Positions 2,480 through 35,849 of a DNA stretch of 64,000 nucleotides are shown piece after piece; the stretch's first letter is position 1, and every line of letters begins with the position of its first letter. The notes under the pieces are model-generated. The model saw nothing but the letters and a program-made list of their open reading frames with translations. It made no database searches and had not been told where the DNA came from. Made by a program: the position numbers and the translations under genes. Origin of the DNA: Gammaproteobacteria bacterium (GTDB lineage Bacteria > Pseudomonadota > Gammaproteobacteria > SZUA-152); assembly GCA_032250735.1 (NCBI GenBank), contig JAVVEP010000005.1:1-64000 (forward strand), written 5' to 3'.

Positions 2480-2779
<300 letters not shown>

Positions 2780-2891
2780 TATTTTCTTGCCATAGAGAAG
2801 ACGTTAAAGAACAGGCCACTAACTTGGCGATGCGCCGTCCGTTTTGTTGAATGTTAATAAAGCGCAGCGATAAGCCGGGAGGAAAGAAACA

Positions 2892-3362
2892 GTGAATATT
2901 ACAGTTACCCTTATAGCGCAGATGATCGCGTTCGGTTTGTTGATCTGGTTTGTCAACAAAGTGATGTGGGGCCCTCTGTCGGGGATCATGGAGGCGCGCC
3001 AGAAGCGTATCGCCGATGGTCTTGCGGCCGCTGAAAAAGGCAAGCACGAAGAAGAGCTGGCCAAAAAGAAGGCGGTTGAGGTGCTCAAGGAGGCCAAGGC
3101 CCAGGCGGCTGAAGTTGTGGCGCAAGGTCAGAAGCGTGCTTCTGAAATTGTTGAAGAGGCCAAGCAGACGGCACGCACTGAAGGTGAGCGTATCGTCACC
3201 GCCGCCAACGCCGAGATCGAGCGCGAGATTAATCAGGCAAAAGAAGCATTGCGTGCGCAAGTCGCCAGCATTGCTATTGCCGGTGCCGAAAAAGTGCTGC
3301 GGCGCGAAATCGATGCCAAGTCTCACGATGCCCTGTTGAACGAATTAGCAGCAGAGATCTAA
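2892..3362 (+). CDS. atpF: ATP synthase Fo subunit b
   Basis: Subunit b (156 residues) is the peripheral stalk: one N-terminal membrane helix (about residues 5-25) and a long charged coiled coil rich in Ala, Glu and Lys. It starts at GTG 2892 behind GGGAGGAAAG. The C-terminal segment [16 protein letters not shown] binds the delta subunit. Four bases separate it from atpH. Confidence 0.96.
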
Positions 3363-3366
3363 GGCC

Positions 3367-3903
3367 ATGGCTGAGAAATCTACTATCGCCCGACCTTATG
3401 CCGAAGCGGTTTTCCAGCTGGCGCATGCAGCCGGCCAGCTGAAGGAATGGTCTGGCATGTTGCAAACCGTGGCGATGATTGCTGCGGATGCGGGCATGCA
3501 AGGCATTATCGGCAACACCAGTGTCAACAAGGCGCAAGTGGCGCAGTTGGTGATTGATGTGGCCGGCGATGTGCTGACTGACGCAGGCGCAAATCTGGTC
3601 AAGTTGCTGACCGAAAATCGCCGCCTGGATGTGGTCGCTGAAATTGCCGAGCAATTTGAAACGCTGAAGGCCGAGGCGGAAAAAACCGTCGAGGCCGAAA
3701 TCGTATCCGCTCAGCAAGTCAGTGCGGCACAACAGGCGATGATCGCTGAAAAGCTTAAAGCACGTTTGGGACGTGAAGTGTCTCTCAAGTGCAGCGTTGA
3801 TGAGTCCCTCATGGGGGGCGCGATTATCAAGGCGGGCGATATGGTGATTGATGGTTCGGTGAGTGGTCAATTAAACAAGCTTTCCGTGGAGCTGGCAGGC
3901 TAA
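3367..3903 (+). CDS. atpH: ATP synthase F1 subunit delta
   Basis: Delta (178 residues) joins the top of F1 to the b-subunit stalk. The N-terminal helical domain begins STIARPYAEAVFQLA, a family signature. The C-terminal part contains SLKCSVDESLMGGAIIKAGDMVIDGSV in pieces typical of delta/OSCP. ATG 3367 lies four bases after the atpF stop, so the two are likely co-translated. Confidence 0.96.
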   Translation: MAEKSTIARPYAEAVFQLAHAAGQLKEWSGMLQTVAMIAADAGMQGIIGNTSVNKAQVAQLVIDVAGDVLTDAGANLVKLLTENRRLDVVAEIAEQFETLKAEAEKTVEAEIVSAQQVSAAQQAMIAEKLKARLGREVSLKCSVDESLMGGAIIKAGDMVIDGSVSGQLNKLSVELAG

Positions 3904-3941
3904 CGCAACGCGCGTTGAGCCGCCAAAAGAGGAAATAGAAA

Positions 3942-5483
3942 ATGCAATTAAATCCGTCTGAAATCAGCGAGCTGATCAAACAACGAATTGAGAAATTTGA
4001 CGTCTCCACCGAGGCGCGTAACGAAGGCACTGTGGTGGGTATCACCGACGGTATCGTGCGCATCCACGGGTTGTCCGACGTGATGCTGGGTGAAATGATC
4101 GAATTCCCCGGCAACACATTCGGTATCGCGCTCAATCTGGAACAGGACTCTGTCGGTTCCGTGGTGCTGGGTGCCTACGAGCACATCACGGAAGGCGACA
4201 AGGTGAAGTGCACCAACCGCATTCTGGAAGTGCCGGTCGGTCCGGGTCTGCTGGGTCGCGTGGTGAACTCCCTGGGTGTGCCCATTGATGGCAAGGGCGC
4301 GATTGATGCGAGCAGCTATGAGCCGATCGAAAAGGTTGCGCCGGGCGTTATCGAACGCAAGTCGGTTGATCAGCCGGTGCAGACCGGACTGAAGGCGATC
4401 GACGCCATGGTGCCGGTCGGTCGTGGCCAGCGTGAGCTGATTATCGGTGACCGCCAGACGGGCAAGACCGCTGTTGCCATCGATGCCATCATCAATCAGA
4501 AGGGCACCGGGGTTAAGTGTATCTACGTAGCTATCGGCCAGAAGGCCTCTTCCGTTGCCGCCGTGGTGCGCAAGCTGGAAGAACACGGTGCGCTGGCGCA
4601 TACCATCATCGTCGCCGCGACGGCTGCCGATCCTGCGGCCATGCAGTACATCGCACCGTATGCCGGTTGTACCATGGGTGAGTATTTCCGCGACCGCGGC
4701 GAAGATGCCCTGATCGTGTATGACGATCTGACCAAGCAGGCCTGGGCCTATCGTCAGGTTTCCCTGTTGTTGCGCCGTCCGCCAGGCCGTGAAGCCTATC
4801 CGGGCGACGTGTTTTATCTGCACTCCCGCCTGCTGGAGCGCGCCTCTCGCATCAATGCGAAAGAGGTGGAACGTCTCACCAATGGTGAAGTGAAAGGCAA
4901 GACCGGATCACTGACCGCTTTTCCGATCATCGAAACCCAGGCGGGTGACGTGTCGGCCTTCGTGCCGACCAACGTGATTTCCATCACTGACGGACAGATC
5001 TTCCTTGAAGCTGATTTGTTTAACGCCGGTATCCGTCCTGCCATTAACGCGGGTCTGTCGGTGTCGCGTGTGGGTGGTGCGGCGCAGACCAAGATCATCA
5101 AGAAGCTGGGTGGCGGTGTGCGTCTCGATTTGGCGCAGTATCGTGAACTGGCGGCCTTCGCGCAGTTTGCCTCCGATCTGGATGAGTCCACACGTAAGCA
5201 GATCGAACGTGGCCAGCGTGTTACCGAGCTGATGAAACAGTTGCAGTACTCGCCGCTGTCGGTTGCTGAAATGGCATTTTCGCTGTTTGCCGCTAACGAA
5301 GGTTTCCTCGACGACGTCGACGTGAAGAAGGTGGTGGCTTTTGAGGCCGCACTGCATTCCTTCCTGCGCGCCAACGCGGCCGACCTGCTTGCCAAGATCA
5401 ATGCAAGCGGTGACTTCAACGATGAGATCGCCGGTGAAATGACCGCGGCCATCACCAAGTTCAAAGCGTCTGGCACTTACTAG
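3942..5483 (+). CDS. atpA: ATP synthase F1 subunit alpha
   Basis: Alpha (513 residues, the same length as the E. coli protein) carries the non-catalytic nucleotide sites of F1. The Walker A motif GDRQTGKT occupies residues 169-176. The beta-barrel domain with [17 protein letters not shown] precedes it and the helical C-terminal domain follows. The start follows AAGAGGAAATAG. Confidence 0.98.
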
Positions 5484-5537
5484 GCTTTTCTTTACTTATA
5501 AAAAGTTAAAAAGCTAAGAGAAGGTTAGGAGAAAGGC

Positions 5538-6398
5538 ATGGCAGTCGGTAAAGAGATACGCACCAAGGTCAAGAGCGTCCAGAACACGCAGAAGATCACC
5601 CGCGCCATGGAAATGGTGGCGGCGAGCAAGATGCGTAAGGCGCAGGATCGCATGAAGGCGTCACGCCCTTATGCGGACAAGATTCGCAACGTGATTCATC
5701 ACCTGGCGCAGTCGCATCCGGAATACAGGCATTCCTACATGCAGGACCGTGAGGTCAAGCGTGTGGGCTTTATTGTAGTGTCCAGTGACCGCGGTCTGTG
5801 TGGCGGCCTGAACTCCAACCTGTTTCGCGCCTCCCTCAAGTCACTGAGAGGCTGGGCGGACCAGGGTGTGGGGATTGACGTATGCGCGATCGGTTCCAAG
5901 GCCACCGGTTTCTTCAGACGCCTGGGCAGCAACATCGCCGCGCAGACCTCTCATCTGGGTGATGCCCCGCGCATCAGCGACATGATCGGTACCATCAAGG
6001 TGATGCTGGATGCCTATGACAAGGGCGAGATCGATCGTTTGTACGTGGTGTACAACAAGTTTGTGAGCACCATGTCGCAGGATCCGCAGATCGAGCAGTT
6101 ATTGCCGATCCAGGCCGAAGAGAAGAAAGAGTACGCCCATCACTGGGACTATCTCTACGAGCCGGAAGCCAAGGATGTGATTAGCGATCTGTTAACCCGT
6201 TACGTGGAGTCACTGGTCTATCAGGCCGTGGTGGAAAATGTGGCCTGCGAGCAGTCGGCACGAATGGTGGCCATGAAGGCCGCGTCGGATAATGCCGGTG
6301 ACCTTATCGATGAATTGAATCTGGCTTACAACAAGGCCCGCCAGGCCGCGATCACTCAGGAAATTTCCGAGATCGTCAGTGGCGCAGCAGCCGTATAA
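5538..6398 (+). CDS. atpG: ATP synthase F1 subunit gamma
   Basis: Gamma (286 residues) is the rotating central shaft. Both ends show the conserved coiled-coil helices: [20 protein letters not shown] at the N-terminus and [20 protein letters not shown] at the C-terminus. The motif [15 protein letters not shown] near residue 80 is diagnostic. GGTTAGGAGAAAGG provides the ribosome-binding site. A hairpin overlaps its stop codon. Confidence 0.98.
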
Positions 6399-6509
6399 CG
6401 GCTGCAGATACAAGAGGAAAGATGAAAGATGAAAGTTAACTACAGCGCGGCGCACGAAGCTAATTATCGTGAATGTACGCGAAGTTCGCATTCGTCTTTT
6501 ACTTGTATC
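6387..6509 (+). other. Hairpin and inverted repeat between atpG and atpD
   Basis: A perfect 7-bp stem GCAGCCG/CGGCTGC (6387-6393 and 6399-6405) encloses the atpG stop codon in its loop. Further on, GATACAAG (6407-6414) and its complement CTTGTATC (6502-6509) bracket an AT-rich stretch with repeated AAAGATG words. The 155-bp gap is unusually long for this operon. It may be an mRNA processing or stability element, or an old palindromic insertion. Function is not shown. Confidence 0.45.
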
Positions 6510-6550
6510 TTTACCCTTTTATCTTTTATCTGAATTACCAAGAGGACTGA

Positions 6551-7933
<1,383 letters not shown>

Positions 7934-23320: not shown

Positions 23321-23513
23321 GGGGCCCATTTTTTCGGGCCCCGTCTGTTGACAGCACAGGATACGGGGCTTAACCTTGCCTGCGAACACAACATCTAGTG
23401 GTTGTGCTTCTCGGGGGGATCTACGCAGGTGCTATGGGGGGCAGCGAAAGCTGGCCGGCACAGGCGTAGATGCAAGACGATCAAAAATTCACAGCGACGA
23501 GGATGTCCGTCAA
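23321..23513 (+). ncRNA. Structured leader of nrdJa mRNA
   Basis: A 7-bp stem GGGGCCC/GGGCCCC with an 8-base T-rich loop (23321-23342) is followed by nested stems CCTGCG/CGCAGG (23379-23384 with 23424-23429) and CACAAC/GTTGTG (23387-23392 with 23401-23406). The leader before ATG 23514 is about 190 bases. No cobalamin-riboswitch B12 box is visible, although the enzyme is B12-dependent. An RNA family known as the nrdJ motif has been reported upstream of class II reductases; whether this belongs to it needs a covariance search. Confidence 0.45.
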
Positions 23514-26500
23514 ATGAAAGCCGCTTCTATTAAATCCGTATCGACCAGCGTCGAAGATATTCCTTTCCAGGCCGCCTCGGTGGACATCTGGGAGAAAAAG
23601 TACCGCCTGCAGAGCAAGGACGGCAAGATCATCGATGAGACCATCGACGACACCTACCGCCGGGTGGCGAACGCGCTGGCCGATGTGGAAGAGACCGAGG
23701 CCAAGCGCAAGGAATGGCGCGGGCATTTCCTGTGGGCCCTGCGCCATGGCGCGATCCCCGCCGGCCGCATCACCTCCAACGCCGGCGCCCTGGCCTACAA
23801 GCCGGCCACCTCGACCATCAACTGCACCGTCTCCGGCACCATCCACGACTCCATGAACGACATCCTGGAGAAGGTGCACGAGGCCGGCCTGACCCTGAAG
23901 GCGGGCTGCGTGGCTCCCGACACCACCGTGGTCACGGAACACGGCGTGGTTAGCGCAGAGCGCGCGGTATGCGAGCGCCATCAGCAGATGCTCTGCTACG
24001 ATCGCGACAGCGGCCGCTTTGAAATGCGCCACATCGAAGAACACATGACCACCCATGTGCCGCGTGCGGACAACATTGAGATCGTCTCCAACGGCACCAC
24101 CCTTAAGACCTCCATCAAACATCCGGTGCTGGTGTACCGCAACGCCAGGCTGAGCTATGTGCGCGCCGACGAAGTGCGCGAGGACGATGGCCTGGTGCAT
24201 CACGCCTTTGAATGGAAGGCAGACGCGACCAATGCCTTGCAGGCCTGGTTCGCCGGCGCGCACCTGGGCGATGGCAGTGCCTACGAAAAACAGATCGCCT
24301 ACAAGGGTAGCCGCCAGGCCTGGGCGCAGAAGGCCCGCGCCGCCGGCCGCCGCCTGGTGTTCAAGATCCGCGCCGCCGAACGTGAAGTCGTCGAGCGCTA
24401 CGCGGCCTTCTTCCACTCCTTCTGCGGCAGTCAGGCCCAGGTGGTCGCCACCGCCACGCCCAATGGCACGCCCGTGTGGGGCTACACCGTCGCCAGCTTC
24501 AAGGCCAGCGCCGCCGCCGATCTCATCGATCATCAGATCGGCAAGAAGACTGCCGCCCTGCGCGTGCCGAGCTGGGTGGCCGCCCATCCCGAGCGCCACT
24601 TTTTACCGTTCCTCGCCGGCCTCATCGACACCGATGGCACCGTGAGCACCGAGCACGGCAGTGTCACCATCGCCATGCAGAGCCACACCTTCGCCGAACA
24701 ACTGCAAGGCCTGCTCGGTCTGTTCGGCGTGCATGCCGCTATCACCGTGCGCAAGCCGCGCGAGCATGTCTATCAGGGAAATGTCATCCGCGACAGCGGT
24801 GGCGCCATGCTGAAAATTTCCGATTCGGATTTCCTGCACGCGGTGGCCGAACACATGGCCGACAGCGGCAAGCGCCGCCGCATTCACGATCACGCCAGCC
24901 AGTCCGGCCAGTACGACCGTTACCTGCTGCCGCAGCAACTCAAGACCGCGCTAGCCGCGGAACTGGAAGGCCTCGGCCACCACGAACGCCAGGCGCTCGG
25001 CTTCTATCACGGCTATCACGAAAAAAGCGTGGTCAGCCGAATCTGGTTAGACCGCTGGAGCACGCGCTTCCCGCACTTGCGCGCGGTGATCAACTTCGCC
25101 CGCACCCTGCGTCCGGTGGAGACCGTGCGCCGCAACCTGCCCATTGGTGAGACCTTCTACGATTTCACCGTGGAAAAACATCACAACTATCTCGCCGGCG
25201 AAAACGGCCTGATGGTTATCCACAACTGCGGCATCGGCTATGAATTTTCCACCCTGCGTCCCCGGGGGGCCTTTGTGGCCGGCGCCGGCGCCTACACCTC
25301 CGGCCCGCTGTCGTTCATGGATATCTACGACAAGATGTGTTTCACCGTGTCTTCCGCCGGCGGCCGCCGTGGTGCGCAGATGGCGACCTTCGATGTGGGC
25401 CATCCCGACGTGCTGGATTTCGTCCTCGCCAAGCGCGAAGACGGCCGCCTGCGCCAGTTCAACCTGTCGCTGCTCATCACCCAGGAATTCATCGAGGCCG
25501 TCAAGGCCGACATCGACTGGAAGCTGGCCTTCCCGCTGACCGACAAAGAGGCGGAGATCGACGGCATCGACCTGAACAACCCCGAGCAGGTGGTATGGCG
25601 CGAATGGCCCACCCACGACAAGTACATCGTCAACGAAGAAGGCCTGGTGGCCTGCAAGGTCTACCGCACCATCCGCGCCCAGCGTCTGTGGGACGTCATC
25701 ATGTCCTCCACCTATGACTACGCCGAGCCCGGCTTCATCCTCATCGACAAGGTCAATGAGATGAACAACAACTGGTTCTGCGAAAACATCCGCGCGACCA
25801 ACCCTTGCGGCGAACAGCCTCTTCCGCCCTATGGCTCCTGCCTGCTGGGCTCGATCAACCTCACCAAGTTTGTGCGCAACCCGTTCACCGACGAGGCCGC
25901 ATTCGACTGGGAAAAATTCCGCAAGACCGTGGCCATCTTTACCCGCATGCTGGACAACGTGGTCGAGATCAATGGCCTGCCACTGGAAGGTCAGCGCGAG
26001 GCCATCCTCAACAAGCGCCGCCACGGCATGGGCTACCTGGGCCTGGGTTCCACCCTCACCCTGATGCAGATGAAATACGGCTCCGACGAATCGCTGGAGT
26101 TCACCGAGCGCGTCACCCGCGAGCTGGCCATGGTGGGCTGGGAGACCGGCGTCCAGCTGGCCGAGGAAAAGGGCCCGGCACCGGTACTGGAGCAGGACTA
26201 CACCGTCACCGCCGCGATGCTGCGCAAGCGCCCCGAAATGAAGACCGACGGCTACAAGGTCGGCGACACGGTCAAGGGCAAGGTACTGCTCGCCCGTTAC
26301 AGCCGCTACATGCAGCAGGTCGGCAGCGTGAATCCCGAGCTGGTCGCGGAGATGGCCGAGAAGGGTTGCCGCTTCACCCATCACAGCTCCATCGCCCCCA
26401 CCGGCACCATCTCCCTGTCGCTGGCCAACAACGCCAGTAACGGCATCGAGCCCAGCTTCGCCCACCTGTATTCGCGCAACGTGATCCGCGAAGGCAAGAA

Positions 26501-26987
26501 GAGCAAGGAAAAGGTCGACGTCTGCTCCTTCGAGCTGCTGGCCTATCGCAAGATGGTCAACACCGACGCCATGCCGTTTGCCGAAGACGAACGCAACAAG
26601 CTGCCCGAGTATTTCATCAGCGCCGATGACATCGCGCCCAAGGCCCACGTCGACATCCAGGCCGCCGCGCAGAAGTGGATCGACTCCAGCATCTCCAAAA
26701 CCGCCAACGTGCCGACCGACTTCGCCTACGCGCAGTTCAAGGACATCTATCTCTACGCCTACGAAAAGGGGCTCAAGGGCTGCACCACCTTCCGCTTCAA
26801 CCCGGAAGTGTTCCAGGGCGTGCTGGTCAAGGAGCAGGACCTGGAGAACACCACCTACCGCTTCACACTCGAAGATGGCAGCGTGGTCGAGGTCAAAGGC
26901 AATGAAGAGATCGAATACGACGGCGAGATGCACTCCGCCGCCAATCTCTACGACGCCCTCAAGGAAGGCTACTACGGCAAATTCTGA
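23514..26987 (+). CDS. nrdJa: Adenosylcobalamin-dependent ribonucleotide reductase large part (NrdJa), intein-containing
   Basis: This 1157-residue precursor gives a 717-residue NrdJa after removal of a 440-residue intein. Class II reductases convert ribonucleotides to deoxyribonucleotides with a B12-generated thiyl radical and work with or without oxygen. STINCTVSG (around residue 103) holds an active-site cysteine. GCGIGYEFSTLRPRGAFV spans the intein junction. NPCGEQPLPPYGSC carries the radical-site region, and SIAPTGTISLSLANN is the substrate-phosphate loop. ATG 23514 is preferred; the frame is open to 23376 but the extra residues are not reductase-like. As in Pseudomonas aeruginosa, the C-terminal part is a separate gene, nrdJb. 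Confidence 0.95.
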   Translation: MKAASIKSVSTSVEDIPFQAASVDIWEKKYRLQSKDGKIIDETIDDTYRRVANALADVEETEAKRKEWRGHFLWALRHGAIPAGRITSNAGALAYKPATSTINCTVSGTIHDSMNDILEKVHEAGLTLKAGCVAPDTTVVTEHGVVSAERAVCERHQQMLCYDRDSGRFEMRHIEEHMTTHVPRADNIEIVSNGTTLKTSIKHPVLVYRNARLSYVRADEVREDDGLVHHAFEWKADATNALQAWFAGAHLGDGSAYEKQIAYKGSRQAWAQKARAAGRRLVFKIRAAEREVVERYAAFFHSFCGSQAQVVATATPNGTPVWGYTVASFKASAAADLIDHQIGKKTAALRVPSWVAAHPERHFLPFLAGLIDTDGTVSTEHGSVTIAMQSHTFAEQLQGLLGLFGVHAAITVRKPREHVYQGNVIRDSGGAMLKISDSDFLHAVAEHMADSGKRRRIHDHASQSGQYDRYLLPQQLKTALAAELEGLGHHERQALGFYHGYHEKSVVSRIWLDRWSTRFPHLRAVINFARTLRPVETVRRNLPIGETFYDFTVEKHHNYLAGENGLMVIHNCGIGYEFSTLRPRGAFVAGAGAYTSGPLSFMDIYDKMCFTVSSAGGRRGAQMATFDVGHPDVLDFVLAKREDGRLRQFNLSLLITQEFIEAVKADIDWKLAFPLTDKEAEIDGIDLNNPEQVVWREWPTHDKYIVNEEGLVACKVYRTIRAQRLWDVIMSSTYDYAEPGFILIDKVNEMNNNWFCENIRATNPCGEQPLPPYGSCLLGSINLTKFVRNPFTDEAAFDWEKFRKTVAIFTRMLDNVVEINGLPLEGQREAILNKRRHGMGYLGLGSTLTLMQMKYGSDESLEFTERVTRELAMVGWETGVQLAEEKGPAPVLEQDYTVTAAMLRKRPEMKTDGYKVGDTVKGKVLLARYSRYMQQVGSVNPELVAEMAEKGCRFTHHSSIAPTGTISLSLANNASNGIEPSFAHLYSRNVIREGKKSKEKVDVCSFELLAYRKMVNTDAMPFAEDERNKLPEYFISADDIAPKAHVDIQAAAQKWIDSSISKTANVPTDFAYAQFKDIYLYAYEKGLKGCTTFRFNPEVFQGVLVKEQDLENTTYRFTLEDGSVVEVKGNEEIEYDGEMHSAANLYDALKEGYYGKF
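23907..25226 (+). mobile_element. Intein with LAGLIDADG homing endonuclease in NrdJa
   Basis: Residues 132-571 interrupt the conserved TLKAG/CGIGYEFS segment. The intein begins with Cys (CVAPDTTVV, block A). Block B reads LKTSIKHPVLVY, block F FYDFTVEKHHNYLAG, and it ends HN before Cys+1. Nucleophile, penultimate His and terminal Asn are all present, so splicing should be active. The inserted endonuclease domain has FAGAHLGDGS and FLAGLIDTDGTVS, the two LAGLIDADG motifs with their aspartates, so homing may also be intact. Base composition matches the host gene, which argues against a very recent arrival. Confidence 0.95.
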
Positions 26988-28080: not shown

Positions 28081-28650
28081 ATGTATTTTTTAGCTGAACC
28101 ATTGCATGAAGAATATTTAAGGTGGGTGGATATTATTGGGGAAGAAGATCCTTACGCCACTCAAAATACTATGGGTATCCATGATGTTTTGCGTGCCCAT
28201 TTTCTAATCATCGATTATTTTTATAATGAAAAAGATTTAGAGGGAGTTGGTGGAATAGGGCCAAAGAATATTGATTCATTGCATTCAGCTCTCTACAGAC
28301 AGTTTATGGGGTTTGATGGTAAAGAAAAATGGAATAATGATTTTCAAAGATGTGCAACTCTTATGTTTGGCCTAATAAAAGATCACCCGTTCCATGATGC
28401 TAATAAGAGGACAGCATTCTTAGTGTCGCTTTATTTTTTGCATAAGATGGGGAGGCTGCCGGAAGTGCAGCAGAAGGAGTTTGAGGACTTCACCGTGGAT
28501 ATAGCTGAAGATAACCTAAAAAGATTTAGGCGATTTAAAGATTTGCGAAAAACCGGTGATGATCCAGAGATATTGTTTATAGCTGATTTTTTGAGACGAA
28601 AATCGAGAGAAAGTGATAGCAGGTACTATACGGTACCTATAGAGAGTTAA
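28081..28650 (+). CDS. Fic/Doc family protein
   Basis: This 189-residue protein has the Fic/Doc signature HPFHDANKRTAFL at residues 102-114, with the DANKR form typical of Doc. Such proteins AMP-ylate or phosphorylate targets, Doc acting on EF-Tu as a toxin. No antitoxin helix or Phd-like gene lies upstream. The frame ends SRYYTVPIES, but a one-base change near 28632 would join it to the next ORF. The DNA is AT-rich compared with the core genes. Confidence 0.85.
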   Translation: MYFLAEPLHEEYLRWVDIIGEEDPYATQNTMGIHDVLRAHFLIIDYFYNEKDLEGVGGIGPKNIDSLHSALYRQFMGFDGKEKWNNDFQRCATLMFGLIKDHPFHDANKRTAFLVSLYFLHKMGRLPEVQQKEFEDFTVDIAEDNLKRFRRFKDLRKTGDDPEILFIADFLRRKSRESDSRYYTVPIES

Positions 28651-29385: not shown

Positions 29386-29488
29386 TATGGCTACGGAAAA
29401 TAGCCCTCTGTCAAAAAACCCCCAGTCGACCGCGAATATAACGGATAAGTTAAAACGTTAGCACCAAAAAAACAAAGAGGATAGAAGG

Positions 29489-29832: not shown

Positions 29833-29927
29833 TTAAGGGGTCAGAGCCCTTCAATAGAGAAAAAAGGGTGGTCCTGATTATTGAGAGTGGTCAGATCGTG
29901 AAGGTGGAGTAACTATGCCTGGCAATT
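29833..29927. repeat. ~95-bp direct repeat, copy 1 (REP-type start)
   Basis: It begins TTAAGGGGTCAGAGCCC and continues through AATAGAGAA and GTGAAGGTGGAGTAACTATGC to CAATT. It matches 31242-31336 over its whole length, with scattered mismatches. The pair encloses two unknown genes and an attC-like site. Confidence 0.85.
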
Positions 29928-30000
29928 CCGGGGACAGTATACTTATTAATCACTTCAACCCGTTTCAGATAATGAAAATAGGTATACTGTCCCCGGATTC
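29925..30000. repeat. RAYT/REP-type palindrome
   Basis: CCGGGGACAGTATAC (29928-29942) and GTATACTGTCCCCGG (29982-29996) are perfect 15-base arms around a 39-base AT-rich loop, with ATT flanks on both sides. The GGGGACAGTATAC word is familiar from elements moved by REP-associated tyrosine transposases. No transposase gene is in the window. Confidence 0.85.
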
Positions 30001-30006
30001 CAAATC

Positions 30007-30555
30007 ATGGATAGATTAATCACAACCGTAGTAACGAGCGCACTTGTAGCTACTGTTGCAGGAGCAGCTATAAATGCATGGCTTGATAATAGGAAATCAA
30101 AGCATGCAACAAGATTCGAAGCCTTAAGTGCTGCTGTCTCCCTGGAAGGGTATGCGCTAGCATGCTCTGACAAGATAGCCGATCACGATCTGGCGCTTAG
30201 CTCTGATGGGCATGCTGGAGCATTTCTTGGTAGCGTTCCTGAATTTTCCGAATTATCAGTCATAGCGGGTTTTCTTCGGCCAAAGAAGGCATCAGTTGCT
30301 AATCGCCTGATGATTTTTCCTCAGGATATTCGCCAAGCTGGTCAACAAATTGCATTCTGGTGGGATGTCACAGCAGATGCTGAACAAACACACGCTGCAG
30401 CTGTTATACAAGTTTCACAAATTGGCATAATGGCTATGGATCTCGCAAAAGACATGAGAGAAGCCTTCGAATTACCATCACGAGAATTAGTCTTCGGAGC
30501 GTACAATGTAAGACAAACATTAACTGAAAATATCAAAGAACATTCGGATGTTTGA
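30007..30555 (+). CDS. Cassette-like gene: unknown protein with N-terminal membrane helix
   Basis: This 182-residue protein starts MDRLITTVVTSALVATVAGA, one membrane or signal-anchor helix with a short basic stretch after it (DNRKSKH). The rest is predicted soluble. I find no known domain. An integron attC-like hairpin begins nine bases after its stop, the layout of an integron gene cassette. Start at ATG 30007 lies right after the RAYT palindrome, which may have displaced its original leader. Confidence 0.65.
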   Translation: MDRLITTVVTSALVATVAGAAINAWLDNRKSKHATRFEALSAAVSLEGYALACSDKIADHDLALSSDGHAGAFLGSVPEFSELSVIAGFLRPKKASVANRLMIFPQDIRQAGQQIAFWWDVTADAEQTHAAAVIQVSQIGIMAMDLAKDMREAFELPSRELVFGAYNVRQTLTENIKEHSDV

Positions 30556-30563
30556 AATTATTT

Positions 30564-30649
30564 TCCTAAAAAGGCGCTCAAGTTGACTCCAAAAGCGGTT
30601 CTCCTATCGTCGCACAGCTTTTGGAGTCAGCTGAGCTTAAACGTTAGGC
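30564..30649 (+). other. Integron attC-like recombination site
   Basis: The site ends in GTTAGGC (30643-30649), fitting the GTTRRRY core. It opens with TCCTAAA (30564-30570), two changes from the expected GCCTAAC. Between them GACTCCAAAAGC and GCTTTTGGAGTC form a perfect 12-bp stem, extended by GCTCA/TGAGC with an extrahelical base, around a 20-base loop. The following gene starts 11 bases past the core, as cassette genes do. No integrase is in the window. Confidence 0.75.
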
Positions 30650-30659
30650 ATCAAATCTT

Positions 30660-31229
30660 ATGCCAATAAATAATGACGATGAACTGACAGCCGCAGTTGC
30701 AAGAGCTGGTGAGTTACTGCAGGAAATTCAGGACTATGCCAAGCGTGACTTTTCAAAACCCGCCAAAGTTCGTTTTCCTCGGGGGTATATACGACCGGCC
30801 GCAGAGGGTCGCACTAGATTGGGGTTCCTTAATCACTCCCACCTTAAGAGCAATATCTCCTACACCATGCTGTTATCAGACGTACAACACTGGCTCTTGG
30901 TGAGAACAGACCTTTCTGGCACCGCAAAGGAAATGGTCATAAAGCTTCAAATATTTTTGCTTGGAAGCATTGTTGAAAGCGCAACAAAAGTTTTTCTTAA
31001 GGGAAAGTGTGGCGGCAATTACGCGAAAAGAACTGAGCATCTTGAGAACAGCGGAATTATTTCGGCCCACCTACATGCCGAACTTGATTGGTTGTGGGAG
31101 CTAAGAAACAAGATGCACTTATTTCAACTTGATAACACCGAATGGCTGTCGACTGACTACACAGTCTCTAATCACAATCGTGCTGTTCGTGCATTTAAGT
31201 CGCTCTTGGAGGAGCTTAACCGGGCTTAA
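30660..31229 (+). CDS. Cassette-like gene: unknown soluble protein
   Basis: This 189-residue protein follows the attC-like core by 11 bases. It is largely helical, with KLQIFLLGSIVESATKVFLK in the middle and ELDWLWELRNKMHLF near the C-terminus. The latter slightly resembles the R-x(n)-H segment of HEPN ribonucleases, but the spacing (RNKMH) is shorter than the usual R-x4-6-H, so no assignment is made. No attC follows; its stop lies in a REP-type repeat. Confidence 0.65.
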   Translation: MPINNDDELTAAVARAGELLQEIQDYAKRDFSKPAKVRFPRGYIRPAAEGRTRLGFLNHSHLKSNISYTMLLSDVQHWLLVRTDLSGTAKEMVIKLQIFLLGSIVESATKVFLKGKCGGNYAKRTEHLENSGIISAHLHAELDWLWELRNKMHLFQLDNTEWLSTDYTVSNHNRAVRAFKSLLEELNRA

Positions 31230-31336
31230 GGGGTCACGGGCTTAAGGGGTCAGAGCCCTTTAATAGAGAATAAAAGGGTGATCCTTATTGTTGAGGGTGG
31301 TCATGTCGTGAAGGTGGAGTAACTATGCACGGCAAT
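31225..31336. repeat. ~95-bp direct repeat, copy 2, with duplicated gene-end word
   Basis: The end of the preceding gene, CGGGCTTAAGGGGTCA, occurs twice in tandem (from 31222 and 31238). It then runs into the full repeat from 31242, ending CAATT at about 31336 as in copy 1. The palindrome arms are TTAAGGG and CCCTTTAA. After it, 31337-31395 is a GC-rich, partly palindromic stretch without a gene. Confidence 0.8.
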
Positions 31337-31423
31337 TGCATTGCGTTTGCTCGCTGTCGTTCGCTGGGGCGCACCAAGCCGCGGCGCGCTCCATATGCTA
31401 ACTTGTATGTGTAAGGAGCGATA

Positions 31424-31966
31424 ATGAAACCCATAGAAATAATCGACTTTTGGTATGCTGATCCAATGCGGAAGCATTGGTTTTCCTCGACACCTGAATT
31501 GGACAATCAGATCAGAGATCGATACGAGAAAGTGTGGATAGAATCTTCTAGGGGGGAATATGATGAATGGCAAAACACCCCAGAAGGGAGTTTGGCACTG
31601 GTAATAGTGCTAGATCAATTTCCTCTTAATATGTTTAGAGGAGAAGCGAAGAGCTTTCAAACCGAAAAAAAGGCTATTGAAGTTGCCTTATCGGCTATCA
31701 ATAGAGGTTTTGATAAAAAACTTGAAAAGAATCATCTGTCTTTTTTGTTTATGCCGCTGATGCATAGTGAAAATATTGATCATCAGGAGCTGTCGGTTGA
31801 GTTGTTCAAGAAGTATGAGTTAAAAGACAATATAACATTTGCGGAGCATCATAGAGATATCGTGAAAAAATATGGACGTTTTCCGCATAGAAATCAAATT
31901 CTCGGCCGCGAAAGCAGTGAAGCAGAAATAGAATATTTAAGTTCTGAAAATGCATTTAAGGGTTAA
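31424..31966 (+). CDS. DUF924 family protein
   Basis: The protein (180 residues) matches the DUF924 pattern: IDFWYADPMRKHWFSSTPEL at the N-terminus, LALVIVLDQFPLNMFRG in the middle, and GRFPHRNQILGRESSEAEIE at the C-terminus. The family is common in proteobacteria, folds as tetratricopeptide-like helices and has no settled role. GTAAGGAG provides the ribosome-binding site. The gene is AT-rich, consistent with the mosaic around it. Confidence 0.88.
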   Translation: MKPIEIIDFWYADPMRKHWFSSTPELDNQIRDRYEKVWIESSRGEYDEWQNTPEGSLALVIVLDQFPLNMFRGEAKSFQTEKKAIEVALSAINRGFDKKLEKNHLSFLFMPLMHSENIDHQELSVELFKKYELKDNITFAEHHRDIVKKYGRFPHRNQILGRESSEAEIEYLSSENAFKG

Positions 31967-35414: not shown

Positions 35415-35849
35415 ATGGACTATTTCTCAGAGCTGGGCTATCTCGGACTTTTTCTGGCCTCATTCTTGGCGGCCACGATTCTTCCATTGAGTTCTGAGGT
35501 GGTTTTAAGTGTTTTATTAGTAAATGAATTAAATCCCGTTTTGCTGGTTGCTGTTGCGACGCTGGGTAATGTGCTTGGTGCATTTACTAACTATGCGATC
35601 GGATTTTGGGGTAGTAGGGCTTTTGTGCAAAGGGTATTGAAAATACCGGAAGAGGATTTCATAAAGGCAGAGGCGCGGTTTAGGAAGTATGGGGTGATGT
35701 CTTTATTTTTTGCGTGGGTGCCGTTAATCGGCGATGCGTTGACCGTCGTTGCTGGTGTGCTAAGAATTAATTTTTTCTGGTTCTTTGTTTTGGTGGCGTC
35801 GGGGAAATTGATTCGATATATCGTCGTTAGTTATTTAATTCTCTATTAA
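35415..35849 (+). CDS. YqaA/DedA family small membrane protein
   Basis: The protein (144 residues) has four hydrophobic segments. YLGLFLASFLAATILPLSSE and LGNVLGAFTNYAIG are the YqaA-type SNARE-associated (DedA) signatures. DedA proteins are implicated in undecaprenyl-phosphate or lipid recycling and membrane energetics; YqaA members are uncharacterised. It starts 66 bases after the kinase gene on the same strand. The 214 bp after it hold a CT-rich run and a REP-type repeat but no gene. Confidence 0.88.
   Translation: MDYFSELGYLGLFLASFLAATILPLSSEVVLSVLLVNELNPVLLVAVATLGNVLGAFTNYAIGFWGSRAFVQRVLKIPEEDFIKAEARFRKYGVMSLFFAWVPLIGDALTVVAGVLRINFFWFFVLVASGKLIRYIVVSYLILY

Follow-up and report, generated by a model that had tools for sequence, protein, structure and literature searches.

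CALIN elements, including cases with a single attC site, have been described; the default of IntegronFinder 2 is two attC sites, and its authors state that single-attC cases can be real (PMC9024848). PMC11023631 cites Loot et al. 2024 for the insertion of cassettes at attG sites, which PMC12444791 also discusses; the latter article cites papers in Science (2025) and Nat Microbiol (2025) on anti-phage genes in integron cassettes.

The locus described here, around an attC site at positions 30564–30649, belongs to a draft gammaproteobacterial genome (3.43 Mb, 61 contigs). Contig C5 is 168 kb long, and its initial 64,000 nucleotides, which contain the locus, are referred to as the window. It shares with CALIN elements small attC-bounded genes of unknown function, the lack of a nearby integrase, and a complete integron elsewhere in the genome, but has one clear attC and one decayed attC (18.9 bits, E 0.11) in place of the default two. 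It differs from a complete integron in that the intI gene is located on contig C4, with none adjacent to the cassettes around 30564–30649. As with cassettes inserted at attG sites, the genome encodes an integrase and the cassettes are separated from the integron platform, whereas no attG junction was identified here and REP-like repeats are found at the left end. Also, the cargo resembles defence families (PDC-S67, and Drt8 on contig C32), as in the anti-phage cassettes, although PDC-S67 is here only a candidate family and the likeness comes from sequence. The cassettes stranded at this locus are a further example of an arrangement already described. It is very probable that the locus is a small integrase-less (CALIN-like) cassette cluster with one intact attC, either placed by an integrase at a non-attI site or left over from an older array, because one intact and one decayed attC, low-G+C genes in the same direction, attC-linked homologues, and a congener differing at the locus are found together. 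The degenerate R'' box, the low score of 25.4 bits, the missing 5' GTT junction, the lack of a detectable attC beside the Hylemonella homologue of ORF 30660–31229, and the second attC, with its E-value of 0.11 and a fold no better than that of shuffles, argue against a cluster. The features of the locus are as follows.

29390–29464, + strand, tentative third attC remnant ending in GTTAGCA, with the shared 13-mer AACGTTAGCACCA
29833–29927, + strand, direct repeat copy 1 (95 bp) with a REP-like GGGGTCAGAGCCC core, 5' of the module
29927–29997, no strand assigned, inverted repeat with 21-nt arms (GGGGACAGTATAC), just 5' of the first cassette gene
30007–30555, + strand, ORF of 182 aa, cassette gene of the intact attC, matching PDC-S67
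30564–30649, + strand, attC with an intact R' box, a slightly degenerate R'' box, and one extrahelical A in the 5' arm
30660–31229, + strand, ORF of 189 aa, probably the gene of a second cassette, with a weak HEPN-like fold
31242–31337, + strand, direct repeat copy 2, between ORF 30660–31229 and the decayed attC
31325–31408, + strand, second attC remnant of another type with both core boxes lost (covariance model R2, alignment with the C25 site)
31424–31966, + strand, DUF924 gene (PF06041, E 4.7e-60; 37.8% G+C), starting just after the decayed attC

Structure of the attC site

The attC at 30564–30649 is composed of the following elements.

30564–30570, R'' box, TCCTAAA
30571–30575, spacer on the R'' side, AAGGC
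30576–30590, L'', GCTCAAGTTGACTCC
between L'' and L', variable part of 32 nt
30623–30636, L', GGAGTCAGCTGAGC
30637–30642, spacer on the R' side, TTAAAC
30643–30649, R' box, GTTAGGC

The GTTAGGC core and the opposing TCCTAAA named in the original prediction are both present, the former meeting the R' consensus GTTRRRY, and the latter pairing with R' at five of seven positions, with its first and last bases off the RYYYAAC consensus. The L'' and L' arms form an imperfect hairpin (GCTCA[A]GTTGACTCC / GGAGTCAGCTGAGC) with an extrahelical A in the 5' arm, as had been foreseen; the stem is longer than the 12 bp given there, consisting of 14 pairs and extending into AAAAGC/GCTTTT. The next start codon, said to lie close by, is the ATG at 30660. 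The single-stranded fold of 30564–30649 has a z-score of −5.1, and none of 200 shuffled sequences was equally stable. GTTAGGC alone is uninformative, occurring 6 times in the window against 5.3 expected.

Two covariance models were used in place of a loose hairpin scanner, which returned too many false positives in G+C-rich DNA. Model R1 was built from 12 attC sites taken from regions surrounding intI in the same genus and family, with the window site excluded, and model R2 from 12 sites of the C25 type (the site on contig C25 plus 11 from other genomes); several of the R2 training sites lie near attC sites of the R1 type. A larger mixed attC alignment (A3) was left out of the modelling because its L'/L'' columns were out of register between the types, and the E-values of both models are rough owing to a shortened calibration. 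The attC geometry claimed at the outset was borne out by the arm pairing, with a top score of 38.5 in the window itself as compared with at most 33.5 across 60 dinucleotide shuffles of it, and by R1, which, run without filters, gave the site 25.4 bits (E = 4e-4 across the 64-kb window), a significant score by which the attC is not refuted. The site is the sole significant R1 match in the window (runner-up, 9.9 bits), and its score is lower than those of most integron attC sites in this analysis. Altogether, 30564–30649 is a genuine attC of a mobile gene cassette. An Rfam scan of the 64-kb window returned zero matches. A resemblance of the attC 3' end to an attC-like site on contig C4 (20 of 24 bases) was no better than with shuffled sequences and was discarded.

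Genes flanking the attC site

ORF 30007–30555 stops 8 bases before the attC. In the usual cassette layout, a gene is located directly 5' of its own attC, and the ORF is therefore the cassette gene of this site. Its product matches the PADLOC candidate defence family PDC-S67 (E 1.6e-13); a fold search gave nothing meaningful. Homologues occur in two others among 369 genomes of the class, and the search of plasmids gave no match. A homologue with 56% identity (L103, 6428–6970) is carried as a cassette gene by a complete integron whose intI is at 4256–5263, and is flanked by attC sites at 6316–6418 and 7020–7081. The homologue in L104 is followed by an attC-like stretch recognised by eye, for which R1 and R2 give no match.

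Homologues of ORF 30660–31229 are likewise sparse. One with 70% identity, in a Hylemonella metagenome-assembled genome, stands alone between two unrelated genes, with no attC detectable beside it. Others (51% identity) are found on plasmids of Alteromonas and Salinimonas, inside a 1.9-kb two-gene module that is common to the two marine plasmids (L138 and L139, about 2707–4585; 96% identity) and carries an attC scoring 23.5–23.9 bits. In the comparison of one plasmid with the other, 17–20 of 20 bases are identical up to the R' GTT and 3–8 of 20 past it; judged from the alignment, this drop in identity is the break that would be expected at the integrase crossover point. The left break of the module has no obvious GTT. 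The AlphaFold2 model of ORF 30660–31229 is of low confidence (pLDDT 63), with HEPN proteins as the best PDB matches in Foldseek (E 0.017), and its motif RNKMH reads R-x3-H, as compared with R-x4-6-H in HEPN; the predicted HEPN likeness is a lead from a weak fold match. Together with the candidate PDC-S67 assignment, this makes the cargo look defence-related. Both ORFs had been called AT-rich, which holds relative to the window (44–46% G+C against 56.6%), and both have relatives beside attC sites elsewhere, so that the check proposed on their homologues also came out in favour of cassettes.

Decayed attC sites and repeats

The stretch 3' of ORF 30660–31229 aligns with the attC on C25 with a score of 44, as compared with at most 31 in 2000 shuffles. 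R2 ranks 31325–31408 first among its matches to the window, with 18.9 bits and an E-value of 0.11 for the 64 kb. This match is more telling than its E-value because it is located where an attC is expected. This remnant has no fold better than shuffled sequences, and with its core boxes lost and no stable fold, it would be dead for recombination. Farther upstream, 29390–29464 is a tentative third remnant; its 13-mer is also found at the 3' end of an attC supported by covariance model in L065, and the models gave no support for 29390–29464 itself.

The two ~95-bp direct repeats, 90% identical to each other, flank the cassette module, and their GGGGTCAGAGCCC core recurs in the genome, including near a Y1 (IS200-like) transposase gene on C4. 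The inverted repeat at 29927–29997 occupies the expected position of the 5' cassette boundary. No GTT-type junction marking the 5' end of the first cassette was found, and the place where it would lie is occupied by REP-like repeats; it may be that the repeats have erased this boundary.

Integron and dispersed attC sites in the genome

Contig C4 carries an intI gene that scores 491 bits against TIGR02249, whose cut-off is 265. Two cassette attC sites come after it, and the contig ends there. This intI is the only match above the cut-off in the genome, with none on C5, and no trace of intI or attI was found at the 30564–30649 locus. The statement that no integrase was in view thus stands for the window and its neighbourhood and is limited to it, since the same genome carries a complete integron.

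Covariance-model searches of the genome detected integrase-less attC sites at C1:7570–7650, C32:3867–3919, C25:4939–5019, C4:5245–5325, and C4:5976–6064. Another, at about C4:6922–7000, was recognised only by eye and fold, and C32:5518–5573 is a decayed attC (16.4 bits). Each genome-wide search scored 150 candidate places, and the number of stranded attC sites is therefore a lower bound. The site at 30564–30649 had been described as lone; it is the one intact attC of the locus, but is accompanied by the decayed second at 31325–31408 and by at least four integrase-less attC loci elsewhere in the genome. The gene before the C32 attC encodes a Drt8 reverse transcriptase (PADLOC, E 1.6e-164).

Several arrangements around these sites were also observed. 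On C32, the Drt8 gene (L088, minus strand, 3921–5495) is directly followed by the attC at 3867–3919, with the decayed attC at 5518–5573 upstream, and a restriction-enzyme-like helicase gene is located nearby (L088, 371–2572). A second integrase-less cluster, on C4 (L137, minus strand, 4951–7652), comprises ~3 cassettes at the opposite contig end from the integron, and adjoins a Y1 transposase gene as well as REP-like repeats. Within a few kb of the lone C25 attC are a tyrosine recombinase gene and an adjoining transposase-like gene (L010, 268–2282), possibly an insertion element. At the very end of contig C30 there is a weak R2 match (G000:C30:34721–34783; 22.2 bits), which could be a cassette array broken by assembly.

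Origin of the cassette cluster

In the proposed mechanism, the attC at 30564–30649 would be the recombination site of the cassette carrying ORF 30007–30555, and ORF 30660–31229 would belong to a second cassette whose own attC has decayed, the two forming a cluster at a variable chromosomal spot near nrdJ. The bottom strand of the attC, when single-stranded, is predicted to fold into a hairpin recognised by an integron integrase. The resident integrase or a relative may have placed the cassettes here. The attC may still be active: with the R' box intact, cleavage at G/TT would still be possible, and the C4 integrase could in principle act in trans to excise the cassette.

How the cassettes came to lie at this spot was originally left between insertion at a secondary site and remnant of an array; the decayed second attC speaks rather for a remnant comprising two or more cassettes. 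That a larger array or integron once occupied the locus and lost its integrase and most of its attC sites has, in our estimate, an even chance of being correct. The intact, decayed, and tentative attC sites all have the same direction, with low-G+C genes between them, which is consistent with such an array, but the locus retains no trace of intI or attI, and the congeners show no array here. A single insertion, by which the resident integrase put the cassette or cassettes here by attC × attG recombination and no larger array ever existed, is a serious possibility that we place somewhat short of even. The genome does carry a complete integron with intI, the attC loci are dispersed over C1, C4, C5, C25, and C32, and attG insertion has been described (see PMC11023631, citing Loot et al. 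2024, and the discussion in PMC12444791). On the other hand, an attG-type left junction was not found, the second attC differs in type from the first and has decayed heavily, pointing to an older history of several steps, and the congeners offer no empty site: an exact junction was not found in any of them, and G005 is the only congener in which an nrdJ-like gene and the gene at 35415 are both present, the interval between them holding unrelated genes and no attC. It is highly improbable that the site is an intrinsic terminator or a REP-like palindrome resembling attC by chance, as its degenerate R'' box and the REP-like palindromes nearby might suggest, because the stem is followed by no T-run, the extrahelical base, spacers, and both boxes are in register, the covariance model gives E 4e-4 and none of 60 shuffles was as good, a homologue of ORF 30007–30555 is carried as an integron cassette, and BLAST finds a single copy of the site in the genome, unlike REP.

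Thus, the small integrase-less cassette cluster is retained as the explanation of the locus. Several stages are seen side by side in the genome: the complete integron, stranded cassettes that are intact, and one with an attC too decayed for the usual software to report. Given such remnants, small defence-like genes that come from integrons may be more numerous than has been counted. A broader and doubtful proposal is that the resident integron seeds the chromosomes of the genus with single defence cassettes (PDC-S67-like, HEPN-like, and Drt8), which turn into ordinary genes once their attC sites are lost; if so, part of the dispersed small defence genes would be former integron cassettes.

Genes upstream of the cassettes

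Just upstream of the cassettes, a Fic/Doc-family gene (28081–28650; TIGR01550 DOC_P1, E 4e-12; 37% G+C) is followed by an unknown ORF of 105 aa. The ribonucleotide reductase ORF at 23376–26987 contains, as judged by eye, a long homing-endonuclease-like insert that is apparently an intein.
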